A DNA stretch of 64,000 bases from Amycolatopsis antarctica (lineage in GTDB: Bacteria; Actinomycetota; Actinomycetes; Mycobacteriales; Pseudonocardiaceae): the NCBI RefSeq assembly GCF_002262875.1, contig NZ_NKYE01000002.1, positions 248,001 through 312,000 on the forward strand, given 5' to 3'. The notes beneath the pieces were generated by a model. It saw only the letters and a program-made list of their open reading frames with translations. It made no database searches and had not been told where the DNA came from. The translations under genes were made by a program, and so were the position numbers. Shown in pieces: positions 32,243 to 36,462 of this stretch (position 1 is the first letter of the stretch; every line of letters starts with the position of its first letter).

Positions 32243-32986
32243 ATGAACGGGACGATCCTGGTACTCGGCGGGCGCAGCGAGATCGGTCTGGCCGTGGCCG
32301 AGCGGCTGGTGCGGGAGCGGGCCCGCCCCGTGGTGCTCGCCGCCCGCCGCGCGGGCGAACTGGGCGGCGAGAGTGCCCGGTTGCGCTCGGCCGGGGCGAC
32401 GGCCGTCGAGACGGTGGAATTCGACGCCGACGACACCGCCGCGCACGGTCCGCTGCTGAACGGCCTGGCGGAGCGCCACGGCCCGATCGAGGTCGTGGTG
32501 ACCGCCTTCGGCCTGCTGGGCGAGCAGGACCGGGCCGAGCGCGAGGCCGAGCACGCGCTGCGGATCGCGCACACCGGCTACCTCGCCCACGTCAGTGTGC
32601 TCACCCACGTGGCGAACCTGTTGCGGCGCCAGGGCAGCGGGAGCCTCGTCGTCTACTCATCGGTGGCCGGGGTGCGCGTGCGGCGGGCCAACTACGTCTA
32701 CGGCTCGGCGAAGGCGGGGCTGGACGGCTTCGCCTGCGGCCTGGGGGACGCGCTCGCGGGCAGCGGCGCGCGCCTGCTGCTCGTCCGGCCCGGTTTCGTG
32801 ATCGGCCGGATGACCGAGGGGATGACCCCGGCGCCGTTCTCCAGCACGCCCGAGCAGGTGGCCGACGCGACGGTGGGAGCGCTGCGGCGTGGCCGCGGGG
32901 TCGCGTGGGTCCCTGGTGTGCTGCGACCGGTCTTCGCCGCCCTGCGCTTCGTGCCCAGGGCGATCTGGCGGCGCATGCCGCGCTGA
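32243..32986 (+). CDS. DprE2-like short-chain reductase
   Basis: A 247-residue SDR. It resembles DprE2, which reduces the keto intermediate in decaprenylphosphoryl-arabinose synthesis for arabinogalactan: LVLGGRSEIGLAVAERL at the cofactor site, VTAFGLLGEQDR, VRRANYVYGSAKAGLDGF with catalytic Tyr and Lys near 152-156, and the end LRFVPRAIWRRMPR. These segments parallel M. tuberculosis DprE2 closely. No dprE1 is adjacent, whereas the two are normally paired, so it may be a second copy or an SDR with a related prenyl-sugar substrate. Confidence 0.75.
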   Translation: MNGTILVLGGRSEIGLAVAERLVRERARPVVLAARRAGELGGESARLRSAGATAVETVEFDADDTAAHGPLLNGLAERHGPIEVVVTAFGLLGEQDRAEREAEHALRIAHTGYLAHVSVLTHVANLLRRQGSGSLVVYSSVAGVRVRRANYVYGSAKAGLDGFACGLGDALAGSGARLLLVRPGFVIGRMTEGMTPAPFSSTPEQVADATVGALRRGRGVAWVPGVLRPVFAALRFVPRAIWRRMPR

Positions 32987-33077: not shown

Positions 33078-33099
33078 TTGACAATGGTTTTCATTGTAT
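33078..33099. promoter_or_regulatory. Zur/Fur-family operator overlapping a promoter
   Basis: ACAATG-GTTTT-CATTGT (33081-33097) is a perfect 6-bp inverted repeat. Overlapping it, TGACAATGGTTTTCA matches the actinobacterial Zur consensus I recall (TGAAAATGATTTTCA) at 13 of 15 positions and the 19-base Fur box at 13 of 19. A TTGACA -35-like element (33078-33083) is embedded in it. It is 145 bases upstream of the PLP-enzyme gene. It does not resemble the DtxR/IdeR box, so zinc control is more likely than iron. Confidence 0.75.
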
Positions 33100-33241
33100 G
33101 TAAACCTTCGCGTGGCCGGAGCGGCGACCCAGCCTGCCCGGCCCGCGCGGCGGGCGAGCCCGGGATGCCGGCGTCCCCGGCGCCGATGTCGATGTATCCC
33201 ACGATTTCCGGGGCGGTGACGCCCCGGAGGCTGGAGCACGG

Positions 33242-34285
33242 ATGTACGAGCACTTCGCCGACGCGGTGAAGGAACCCGACGCGATCGCGGTGGACGGCGA
33301 CCTGCTGTGCCTGCGGTTCGAGACGATGAAGGTCTACTCGGCACTCGGCGCGGTACGCCACCTCCTCGACACCGGGGCGGTGGCGCCGGGGGACACGCTG
33401 GTAGACAGTTCGAGCGGCATCTACGCGCACGCGCTTGCCCTGGCCTGTCACCGTTTCGGGCTCCGATGTCATATCGTCGGATCCACCACCGTCGACCGGA
33501 CACTGCGGGTCCAGCTCGAGATCCTGGGCGCGACGCTGGAACGGATGCCGCCCTCGGACAACTTGCGCCTCGACCAGAATCTGCGGGTGCGGCGCGTCGC
33601 CGAGATCCTCCGGGAGAACCCCTCGTACCACTGGATGCGGCAGTACCACGACGACATCCACTACCTCGGCTACCACGAGGTCGCCGCCGCCATCGATCGG
33701 GAAGCGCCCGCCGGACCGCTCGGCCTGGTCTGCAGTGTCGGCACCGGCGCGTCGAGCTGTGCGATCGCCTCCCGGCTGCGGGCGGCGGGGCGGGAGGTGA
33801 CCCTGCACGGGGTCCAGCCGTTCGGCAGCGTCACTTTCGGTGGCGAACGGGTGCCCGATCCGGACATGCTGATCGCCGGTATCGGCAGTTCCATCGAGTT
33901 CGGCAACGTCCGGCACGAGTTGTTCGACCGGATCCACTGGATCTCCTTCGACTACGCCACCTCCGCGGCCGTGGAGTTGTTGCGCACCAGCGGTATCTTC
34001 GCCGGGCTGTCCTCCGGGGCGGCCTACCTCGCCACCCGGTGGGAGCGGCACCGGGACAGCCGCCGCTCGTACGTCTTCCTGGCGCCGGACACCGGGCACC
34101 GCTACGTCGACTCGGCCTTCGCCCGGCATCGGGAATCGGTGCCCTTCGGCGATATGCGCCCGCACGAAATCGGTACCGTCGGCGATCTGGACCTGCCGTG
34201 GTCCACAATGGACTGGGGACGCCGCCGCGAACGGTGGATCCCGCACCAGGCAGCGCGTTCGGTACTGCGGGGTGCGGCCCGATGA
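33242..34285 (+). CDS. Fold-type II PLP enzyme, cysteine synthase-like
   Basis: A 347-residue relative of cysteine/cystathionine synthases. The PLP lysine is probably Lys30 in RFETMKVYSALG. The substrate loop is SSSGIYAHALALACHRFG near residue 58 in place of SSGN, and the phosphate loop is CSVGTGASSCA near 165. Because the motifs diverge from true O-acetylserine sulfhydrylases, a specialised beta-replacement or elimination (for example making an aminated or metal-binding amino acid, as SbnA-like enzymes do) is more likely. A GGAG lies before the ATG. It is the first gene behind the Zur-like operator and overlaps the next by ATGA. Confidence 0.8.
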   Translation: MYEHFADAVKEPDAIAVDGDLLCLRFETMKVYSALGAVRHLLDTGAVAPGDTLVDSSSGIYAHALALACHRFGLRCHIVGSTTVDRTLRVQLEILGATLERMPPSDNLRLDQNLRVRRVAEILRENPSYHWMRQYHDDIHYLGYHEVAAAIDREAPAGPLGLVCSVGTGASSCAIASRLRAAGREVTLHGVQPFGSVTFGGERVPDPDMLIAGIGSSIEFGNVRHELFDRIHWISFDYATSAAVELLRTSGIFAGLSSGAAYLATRWERHRDSRRSYVFLAPDTGHRYVDSAFARHRESVPFGDMRPHEIGTVGDLDLPWSTMDWGRRRERWIPHQAARSVLRGAAR

Positions 34286-35106
34286 CCGCCCTCCCGGCCG
34301 TACACGACGTCGCCGCGCTCACCGAGTCGATACTCGGCCGCGCCCATGGACCCGCCCCCCGCGAACTGCTCGTCACCAGCGCGTTCTGGCTGCACCACAC
34401 CACCCGACTCGCCGGGGGCGCCACGACGTACCGCAACCACTACCTGCTCCTGCGTACCGGCACGGCGTTCGGCGCCTGCTCGTTCGAGGAATCCGAGCTG
34501 CCGCCGGACTTCTGCGCGGAGGCGTCCGGCCGTCCGCTCGCCGAGCTGCTGCGGCACGACTCGCCGGCGGTGCGGATAGCCGCGATGGACGCCTACCTCG
34601 GCGCGGTCCGCCCGCACCGGGACGACCCCGCCGCCGAACCCGTGACGCTGCCGGGCGGCACCCCCGAGACCAGGGCCCGCGCCAGGGACGCGGCGATCGC
34701 GGGCTTGCTCGACGTCGCCCCCGGCAGCAGGGTCGCGCTCATCGGTGTGGTCAACCCGCTGGTGGCGGCGATCCGCGAGCGAGGGGCCGAATGCCTGCCC
34801 TGTGACCTGAGCCTGCGCAGTACCCAGTGGGGCGATCCGGTGTCCGCCGACATGACGGAGACCATTGAGGCCGCGGACGCCGTGGTCGCCACCGGCATGA
34901 CGCTGGGCAACGGCAGCTTCGACGCCCTGCTCGGGCACTGCCGGGCGAAGGCGAAGCCGCTCGTGGTCTACGCGCAGACCGGCAGCGCGGTCGCCAGGGC
35001 GTTCCTCGGCGACGGCGTCACCGCCCTCTCCGCGGAACCCTTCCCTTTCTCCCAGTTCAGCGCGGACCCGACCGTGCTGTACCGCTACCGTGACCGGCCG
35101 GAGTGA
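34282..35106 (+). CDS. DUF364-like Rossmann protein (putative metal-chelate related)
   Basis: A 274-residue protein resembling the DUF364/DUF4213 family, annotated in general as putative heavy-metal-chelation proteins with a Rossmann-like C-terminal half. The N-terminal part has SAFWLHHTTRLAGG and YRNHYLLLRTG. The C-terminal part has VALIGVVNPLVAAIRERG, VVATGMTLGNGSFDALL and LVVYAQTGSAVARAFLGDG, ending in AEPFPFSQFSADP. Cysteines at CLPCD and GHCRAK might bind metal. It overlaps the PLP-enzyme gene by four bases. Its reaction is not known; the operator upstream and exporter downstream suggest a step in making or handling a small metal ligand. Confidence 0.7.
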   Translation: MTALPAVHDVAALTESILGRAHGPAPRELLVTSAFWLHHTTRLAGGATTYRNHYLLLRTGTAFGACSFEESELPPDFCAEASGRPLAELLRHDSPAVRIAAMDAYLGAVRPHRDDPAAEPVTLPGGTPETRARARDAAIAGLLDVAPGSRVALIGVVNPLVAAIRERGAECLPCDLSLRSTQWGDPVSADMTETIEAADAVVATGMTLGNGSFDALLGHCRAKAKPLVVYAQTGSAVARAFLGDGVTALSAEPFPFSQFSADPTVLYRYRDRPE

Positions 35107-35262
35107 ACCGTGATCGTTCGGGAAACCGTTGCACGGCAAGGAAAAGACAGTGCACGTACGGGTCGGAGACGTGAGGGCGGGGAGATGCGGGTGAGGGGCG
35201 CGCGCCGGGAGGACACCGGCCAGGGGCGTTCCCCCGTGCTGTCCGGTCCGCGAGGTGGCCCG

Positions 35263-36462
35263 GTGGACGAACCGCCGGGCGATCTGCGGATGGCGCGGTT
35301 GCTCTGGCCGATCCTGCTGGCATCGGCGGTGAGCCTGCTGCCGTTCACGGTGTTCAGCACCTTCCTGGTGCCGATATCCGAGGACGCGGACAGCGGTGTC
35401 GCCGCGATGGGCGGGTTGCGCGGACTGGGCGGACTCGCCTCGCTCGCCGTCGGGGTCGCCTGCGCCCCGCTGATCGACCGCGTCCGAACCGATCTCGTCA
35501 CGGCGGCCGGGCTGGCCCTGCTCGGCGTGTCGGCCGTTCTCGGCGCCGCCGGGCACTTCCTCGCGCTGGCCGTGTTCTGCTTCCTGGTCGGCGCCGCCAC
35601 CTCGGTGCTCGGTCCCGCGCTCGCCACCGCGGCGGCGAACCGGTTCGACTCCGCCGCGGCCTCGGGCCGGGCGGCGACGCTGGTCACCGCGACGCAGTCG
35701 CTGGCCGCGATGCTCGCCGCACCGCTGGTCGTCGCGCCGGGCCTGCTCTGGGGCTGGCAGGGCAACCTGCTGGCCGTGGCGGCGATCGCGCTCGTTCTGG
35801 CCGCCCTGTTCCTGGTGCGGGGCAGGCGCGCCGTGGTAGCTGGTCCGTCCACATCGGACGCCCGGATCGGATACCTCGCCTCGTTCGCCGCGCTGGCGAG
35901 GATTCCCGGTGCCGTGCCGCTGCTGCTGATCGCCTTGCTGCGCACCGCGGCGTTCATGGGTTACCTGTCGTACCTGGCCGCGTTCTACGACGAGCGCTTC
36001 GCCCTGGAGCCGGGGCCGTTCGCCTTCGTCTGGACGCTGAGCGGCGCGTCGTTCTTCGTCGGCAACCTGATCACCGGGCGGCTCACCAACCGGGCGAGCG
36101 CCCGGATCGGTACCGAACGGGTACTGCAGGCGGGCCTGGTCACGGCGGCCCTCGCGATGGGCGGCTTCTACCTCACCGAGTCGCTGCCGGTGGCACTGCT
36201 GCTCACCGCGGCTCTCGGCGGGGCACACGCGGTCGTCGCGGCCTGCCTGATCGGTCTGCTCGTACGCCGCTGCCCCGACCTGCGCGGAGCGGCACTCGGC
36301 CTGAACGCCGCCGGGATGAGCCTGGGCGTGTTCGCCGGGGCAGCGCTCGGCGGAGCCGGTCTTGCGGTCGCCGGGTATCCCGGTATCGGCGTCGTCCTCG
36401 GTGGGATCACGCTGCTCGCGCTGATTCTCGGCGTGCTGGTCCGTCGCTCGCCCGCCGCGTGA
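35263..36462 (+). CDS. MFS transporter, probable exporter of the operon product
   Basis: A 12-helix major facilitator of about 399 residues. The GTG at 35263 has GAGGTGG 4-5 bases upstream and puts the first membrane helix (LLWPILLASAVSLLPF) close to the N-terminus, as usual. In-frame alternatives at 35110 (GTG with GGAG, 3 bases past the previous stop) and 35185 would add a hydrophilic N-terminus. Helical segments alternate with short basic loops (LIDRVRTD, VRGRR, RRCPDLRG). The third position in this operon, behind two biosynthetic-looking genes and a Zur-like site, fits export of a small metallophore; direction is inferred. Confidence 0.8.
   Translation: MDEPPGDLRMARLLWPILLASAVSLLPFTVFSTFLVPISEDADSGVAAMGGLRGLGGLASLAVGVACAPLIDRVRTDLVTAAGLALLGVSAVLGAAGHFLALAVFCFLVGAATSVLGPALATAAANRFDSAAASGRAATLVTATQSLAAMLAAPLVVAPGLLWGWQGNLLAVAAIALVLAALFLVRGRRAVVAGPSTSDARIGYLASFAALARIPGAVPLLLIALLRTAAFMGYLSYLAAFYDERFALEPGPFAFVWTLSGASFFVGNLITGRLTNRASARIGTERVLQAGLVTAALAMGGFYLTESLPVALLLTAALGGAHAVVAACLIGLLVRRCPDLRGAALGLNAAGMSLGVFAGAALGGAGLAVAGYPGIGVVLGGITLLALILGVLVRRSPAA
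35846..35860. repeat. 15-bp repeat CGTCCACATCGGACG, copy 1
   Basis: CGTCC-ACATC-GGACG, a 5-bp inverted repeat, lies inside the MFS gene. An identical copy starts at 36464, two bases after the same gene's stop codon. Confidence 0.6.

Follow-up and report, generated by a model that had tools for sequence, protein, structure and literature searches.

A putative Zur-controlled metallophore operon with a PLP enzyme and a DUF364 protein in Amycolatopsis antarctica

How might an actinobacterium make a metal ligand without any of the enzymes by which metallophore clusters are usually recognized? This question is raised by three consecutive genes in a stretch of 64,000 nucleotides from Amycolatopsis antarctica (contig NZ_NKYE01000002.1, positions 248,001 to 312,000; the window), which encode a pyridoxal 5'-phosphate (PLP) enzyme, a protein of the DUF364 family, and a transporter of the major facilitator superfamily (MFS), and which stand behind a box resembling the operators of the repressor Zur. 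We read this operon, at a probability of about 0.7, as the biosynthesis-and-export half of a metallophore system that is repressed by Zur, induced by zinc starvation, free of nonribosomal peptide synthetases (NRPSs), and built around the PLP enzyme and the DUF364 protein. Judged by titles and the beginnings of abstracts, the literature searched, which was largely without subscription papers, shows no metallophore pathway in which DUF364 is linked to a PLP enzyme.

The operator and its counterparts in the same genome

The operon appears to be preceded by a Zur-type operator, to which Zur would bind. A 17-bp inverted repeat (ACAATG-gtttt-CATTGT, 33081-33097) is overlapped by a 15-bp box, TGACAATGGTTTTCA, that agrees with the consensus TGAAAATGATTTTCA at 13 of 15 positions; the sequence TTGACAATGGTTTTCATTGT starts at 33078. 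Within the window, sites with at most three mismatches from TGAAAATSATTTTCA are confined to 33079-33093, against a mean of 0.02 in 100 dinucleotide shuffles. The exact string TGANAANNNTTNTCA—the core of a 21-bp motif that PMC5472717 gives for actinobacterial znuA—occurs in the whole genome (6,342,753 bases, 64 contigs) at the window box only, and the reversed control does not occur at all.

When up to three mismatches are allowed, the published 21-bp motif finds five places in this genome and its reversed control one (Table 1). The window site thereby groups with a locus read as rpmG/rpmB and with an operon for a FecCD-type importer on contig 9, and rpmG/B are among the Zur targets of Streptomyces coelicolor (PMC5472717). 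Upstream of the znuA gene of the same genome stands CGACAACGGTTTCCATTA, which has GACAAYGGTTTYCATT in common with the window site. The genome encodes a Zur orthologue (L104:6693-7115) next to an ArsR/SmtB gene; this orthologue matches FurB (2o03, 1.1e-54) and the S. coelicolor protein (3mwm, 4.5e-54) among PDB sequences. The argument is carried by the published motif, since a tightened pattern, TGAMAAYSRTWWTCA, was designed with the two sites already known. The S. coelicolor motif from chromatin immunoprecipitation was set aside as too loose here: with one mismatch allowed it finds 89 places per strand, versus 11 in the control.

These sites bear on the possibility that the product is a siderophore-like ligand for iron, nickel, cobalt, or copper, controlled by Zur or by another Fur paralogue. 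The genome holds three Fur-family matches, the FecCD and Peripla_BP_2 models derive mostly from iron, corrinoid, or haem systems, and a related locus in Kribbella has an importer of the NikA/Opp type, all of which would suit another metal. On the other side, the box fits the Zur motif taken from the literature, by which rpmG/rpmB, a locus known to be under Zur control, is picked up in the same genome as well. We regard another metal as unlikely and take zinc as the probable one.

Gene content of related loci

With the DUF364 protein as query, 260 relatives were found in GTDB species genomes, and the counts below refer to the best 80 of them; some of these loci end at contig ends. A relative of the PLP enzyme lies near the DUF364 gene in all 80 loci (in L010 in two separate pieces). 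FecCD permeases and substrate-binding proteins (SBPs) are each present in 57 loci, with matches down to 42% and 28% identity, respectively, and they occur together in 55. An MFS gene is found in 77 loci if either of two types is counted, the window's type in 34 and a second type in 43. GHMP kinases (47 of 80) and methyltransferases (45) are frequent additions, whereas PhyH dioxygenases (12) and RimK ATP-grasp proteins (4) are rarer. The count for ATP-binding cassette (ABC) proteins, 70 of 80, is set aside because it includes unrelated ABC transporters of 33-38% identity; in several Streptomyces loci, an ABC gene of this identity range lies upstream. A putative exporter and a putative importer are thus linked to biosynthetic genes in these loci, as in a metallophore system, the directions of transport being predicted ones.

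It could also be that the product is a small metabolite or an antibiotic that is merely timed by zinc starvation, exported by the MFS protein, with the FecCD importer serving some other ligand. The MFS exporters are generic, the importer is unlinked in A. antarctica itself, and Zur governs further processes such as the ribosomal protein genes. This explanation has to contend with the 55 loci in which FecCD and SBP genes share a region with the PLP/DUF364 pair, and with the homology of 72-73% between the unlinked importer and the cluster importer, together with the importer's own box. It seems to us quite improbable.

At the level of the bacterial family, the distribution is patchy: a DUF364 match at 1e-40 was obtained in 80 of 200 genomes, A. 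antarctica included, a count that takes in a more distant subfamily. Twenty regions were taken from family genomes, and at least 11 of them are contigs that the 80 loci already represent; PLP enzyme and DUF364 occur together in 19. The twentieth, L160, looks like a degraded cluster with a partial methyltransferase and a partial DUF364 gene, in which no PLP gene was found and the boxes are kept.

Operators in related loci

The published 21-bp motif at up to four mismatches is found at 98 places in 67 of the 80 loci, and the reversed motif at three places in three. Most of these places (77, in 59 loci) lie outside matched genes and at most 600 bp upstream of a cluster gene; one lies inside a matched gene, and the remainder elsewhere in the loci. 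The exact core occurs at 25 places in 23 loci, compared with none for the reversed core; of 20 random permutations, nineteen gave no place and one gave a single place. Consensus strings partly learned from the same loci give sites of at least 13/15 in 48 of 80 loci, and a permutation control for this learned consensus on every fourth locus gave 0 in each of 20 permutations versus 16 observed. The loci are related by descent, and the motif counts are therefore not independent trials. A chance palindrome is rejected on account of the shuffles, the single exact core in the genome, and the motif in relatives compared with the reversed motif.

The position of the box is also informative. In 18 relatives that carry TTGACAAT[CG][AG]TTTTCA, TTGACA overlaps the box as it does in the window, and in 17 of these 18 an ATGCT was seen by eye at about the spacing of a -10 element. 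No TAnnnT was found at that position in any of the 19 rows (18 relatives and the window), and a promoter scan found no consensus -10 element at the window site. The overlap with TTGACA and the spacing of ATGCT would place the box over the -35 element and the spacer, as expected for repression.

Re-reading of the sequence confirms the positions that the initial annotation had given for the three genes, for the box with its overlapping TTGACA, and for the inverted repeat. The attribution of the box to Zur in that annotation agrees with the published motif, with the boxes of relatives, and with the similar boxes that the same genome has at known Zur targets; the motif scan that the annotation proposed places the window site with the rpmG/rpmB locus and the FecCD operon.

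The PLP enzyme and the DUF364 protein

The PLP enzyme most resembles SbnA, which acts in the L-2,3-diaminopropionic acid (L-Dap) pathway of staphyloferrin B (PDB 5d84-5d87) and whose substrates are O-phosphoserine and glutamate. SbnA (TIGR03945) is its best NCBIfam model, at 130 bits versus a cut-off of 350 that is not reached; a profile search of the PDB places SbnA as third distinct sequence, behind 9k2p and 4ofx; and a fold search with the AlphaFold2 model (predicted local distance difference test score, pLDDT, of 84) ranks SbnA 5d86 first, at about 20% identity. Residue K30 is invariant in 29 sequences, aligns with the SMK motif of SbnA, and is presumably the PLP-binding lysine. Differences are equally apparent: the window enzyme has SSGI where SbnA has TSGN, and no gene for an ornithine cyclodeaminase (SbnB) or a lyase was found in L007 and L011, two related loci in which the genes between the cluster ends were assigned. 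Judged from its sequence, the enzyme may hence work like SbnA while not being a member of the SbnA equivalog. An ordinary cysteine synthase was rejected as the principal interpretation, as the cysK model gives 80 bits versus a cut-off of 351, SbnA scores higher, and the loci seen show a strict link to DUF364.

The second gene overlaps the first by ATGA, and its product passes the Pfam gathering score for DUF364 (49.9 vs 23 bits). Its model (pLDDT 91) has as top fold matches the DUF364 structures 3l5o (Dhaf4260) and 3npg, with TM-scores of 0.51-0.59 by query length and identities of 15-17%. By sequence search, 3npg is the one structure matched, weakly. The 2010 structure paper suggests a condensation or hydrolysis in flavin, pterin, or siderophore synthesis, and genome context had suggested heavy-metal uptake or chelation; in the accessible part of that paper (PMC2954201), neither structure is associated with Zur or with PLP enzymes.

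A further alternative is that the operon encodes a form of the known actinobacterial aminopolycarboxylate pathways, of the [S,S]-ethylenediamine-disuccinate (EDDS) or EDHA type. Here, too, an enzyme resembling SbnA has a central place; DUF364 is not known to us to be part of the EDDS gene set. In Amycolatopsis japonicum, likewise an actinomycete, the complexing agent EDDS is under Zur control (PMC9252823), a likeness in regulation. Speaking against such a pathway, DUF364—the query for all 80 loci—always has a PLP gene nearby, and SbnB and lyase genes are lacking in L007 and L011, a comparison that did not extend to the gene sets of EDDS and EDHA. We consider this alternative improbable. Aspergillomarasmine/toxin A, which is fungal, is made by a cysteine-synthase-like enzyme, and we know of no link to DUF364 or Zur for it. 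These compounds are likewise aminopolycarboxylic acids (PMC10792612).

Transporters and remaining pathway parts

The MFS protein is a probable exporter whose matches in the Pfam and NCBIfam scans are generic. In an alignment of 36 sequences, conservation begins near residue 56, the ~55 residues before it being unconserved; the start at 35110 is therefore uncertain, and the true start lies probably downstream.

Importer genes are not present at the window locus. A single close homologue of the SBP found in the clusters is encoded in the genome (72%, E 1.3e-161). It belongs to the FecCD-ABC-SBP operon on contig 9, whose genes share 72-73% identity with their L011 cluster counterparts and which has a Zur-like box in front. 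This operon is probably the importer of the window system, acting in trans, and the three window genes would then be one part of a split system. For the SBP and FecCD genes at L103:2731-5716, the best NCBIfam models are those of a "putative F420-0 ABC transporter" (TIGR03868/TIGR03869), below cut-off; this family annotation may merit re-examination.

Neither an NRPS nor an NRPS-independent siderophore (NIS) synthetase was detected by the Pfam and NCBIfam scans in the operon and seven flanking open frames. The zincophore cluster SCO7676-7682 of S. coelicolor is presumably that of coelibactin. Zur binds its promoters (PMC5472717), and coelibactin is described as a putative nonribosomal peptide (PMC3430247), in contrast to the NRPS-free window operon. 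The gene just upstream of the operon (32243-32986) scores above the cut-off for DprE2 (decaprenylphospho-beta-D-erythro-pentofuranosid-2-ulose 2-reductase) and seems unrelated to it.

Table 1. Features of the operon and matches of the published 21-bp Zur motif (up to three mismatches) in the A. antarctica genome
Feature	Position	Strand	Basis or context
Zur-type operator, 15-bp 7-1-7 box TGACAATGGTTTTCA	33079..33093	+	Motif matches in genome; equivalent boxes in relatives
TTGACA, candidate -35 element overlapping operator	33078..33083	+	Sequence; same overlap in 18 relatives
SbnA/CysK-fold PLP enzyme	33242..34285	+	PF00291 3.8e-32; SbnA best NCBIfam model, top fold match 5d86
DUF364 (PF04016) two-domain protein	34282..35106	+	PF04016 3.4e-13; ATGA overlap with PLP gene
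MFS transporter, probable exporter	35110..36462	+	PF07690 1.2e-24; relatives in 34/80 loci
Motif match 1 of 5	33079-33093		Window box
Motif match 2 of 5	C9:176684		Upstream of FecCD importer operon
Motif match 3 of 5	C60:242887		Adjoins genes for ribosomal proteins L33 and L28 (rpmG/rpmB; assigned by eye); divergent CobW-like GTPase
Motif match 4 of 5	C12:3466		Inside predicted open frame
Motif match 5 of 5	C25:468685		

Proposed mechanism

In the mechanism that we propose, zinc-loaded Zur would, as long as zinc is available, occupy the box, which covers the -35 region, and block transcription; under zinc scarcity, both boxes—that of the operon and that of the importer—would be freed. The PLP enzyme would then use an activated amino acid of the serine type, for which O-phospho-L-serine is the probable candidate, and condense it with another amino acid at the latter's amino group, giving a diamino-polycarboxylate skeleton. 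This step is proposed because of the likeness to SbnA and because of the linked kinases, which would supply the phospho-amino acid; the GHMP kinases linked in 47 of the 80 loci would fit such a substrate. The DUF364 protein may carry out a further condensation or modification, the MFS protein would export the product, and the metal complex would be recovered by the SBP-FecCD-ATPase importer of contig 9.

Several observations weigh against this mechanism. Regarding regulation, the znuA box and the FecCD box each agree with the plain consensus at 10 of 15 positions only, the latter reaching 13/15 only against strings partly drawn from relatives, and the Zur protein exceeds none of the NCBIfam cut-offs. 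Moreover, the published motif is absent from 13 of the 80 loci even when four mismatches are allowed. Ten of these are Streptomyces loci of the methyltransferase-PLP-DUF364-MFS type (L001, L005, L008, L010, L017, L018, L022, L027, L028, and L030), with another ABC gene matched upstream in all but L018; the others are L029, L031, and L079. For the ten, the operator may lie farther upstream, beyond the 7 kb covered, because the box of L002, a locus of the same Streptomyces type, is at position 62, the extreme edge of its stretch. Regarding the chemistry, a single-sequence search of the PDB ranks cystathionine beta-synthase and CysK chains over SbnA. No GHMP kinase is linked to the window operon, and a query with the type-A kinase has no match elsewhere in the genome; the B-type kinases, 33-39% identical to type A, were not used as query. 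PF00288 matches lie at three places in this genome, two of which read as IspE and ThrB and the third of which is not clearly readable, and the GHMP kinase has no match among PDB sequences at 0.001. A methyltransferase of the relatives' type is likewise not linked, the genome giving only a partial match of 33%. As clear homologues of both enzymes are missing, the pathway may be incomplete or its product simpler. Finally, none of the 10 same-genus genomes among those listed has the DUF364 gene, and the metal may differ between clades, since the Kribbella locus (L045:200-2806) uses an importer of the Nik/Opp type. There, a NikA/Opp-like binding protein and a permease, both below model cut-offs, replace FecCD, with a Zur-like box at 249.

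The initial annotation had proposed that the three genes form a minimal pathway for a small zinc ligand. Its readings of the first two genes, as a divergent enzyme of the cysteine-synthase fold and a DUF364-like protein, hold in view of the SbnA matches by NCBIfam model and fold and of the PF04016 match. The metallophore kind of the system is also sustained, as, across actinobacteria, PLP and DUF364 genes are linked to MFS exporters and to importers of the metallophore type, and the suggested co-occurrence was found for the PLP gene in 80 and for either MFS type in 77 of 80 loci. What does not stand is the self-sufficient trio, given that the probable importer lies elsewhere behind a second Zur-like box and that relatives add a GHMP kinase, a methyltransferase, and other genes. 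The annotation had named as a possible refutation that homologues of the operon lack the operator and lie in primary-metabolism contexts; here, 67 of the 80 loci are favourable to the proposal and 13 are without the motif.

A possible class of metallophores

More tentatively, and at somewhat less than even odds, these loci might represent a separate and widespread class of actinobacterial metallophore systems with a core of PLP enzyme and DUF364, devoid of NRPS, NIS, and opine enzymes, in which DUF364 would be the key ligand-forming protein. At least two sub-lineages may exist—one with FecCD and often a GHMP kinase, the other with an ATP-grasp protein resembling L-amino-acid ligases and with binding proteins of the Opp/Nik type—and the zinc or nickel ligands that they make would differ.

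In L164-L173, ten regions of family genomes, a DUF364 protein of a second subfamily (39-48% identity) has a distant PLP enzyme (29-33%) as its partner each time. Open frames were listed for five of these regions and Pfam was run on the genes of three, with matches to an ATP-grasp/L-amino-acid ligase (L170), a methyltransferase (L164), and SBP_bac_5 lipoproteins (L165 and L170). Zur-like boxes of at least 13/15 are found in two of the ten.

If the proposal is true, DUF364—known by structure since 2010 and without assigned chemistry in the literature searched—would gain a testable reaction. Widespread metallophore clusters could then be named without NRPS, NIS, or opine genes, which are the usual marks of recognition. 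The Zur box would offer a direct switch for these clusters, by zinc depletion or by deletion of zur. Many Streptomyces and related actinobacteria would, in that case, make a zinc ligand that is not described in the literature searched.

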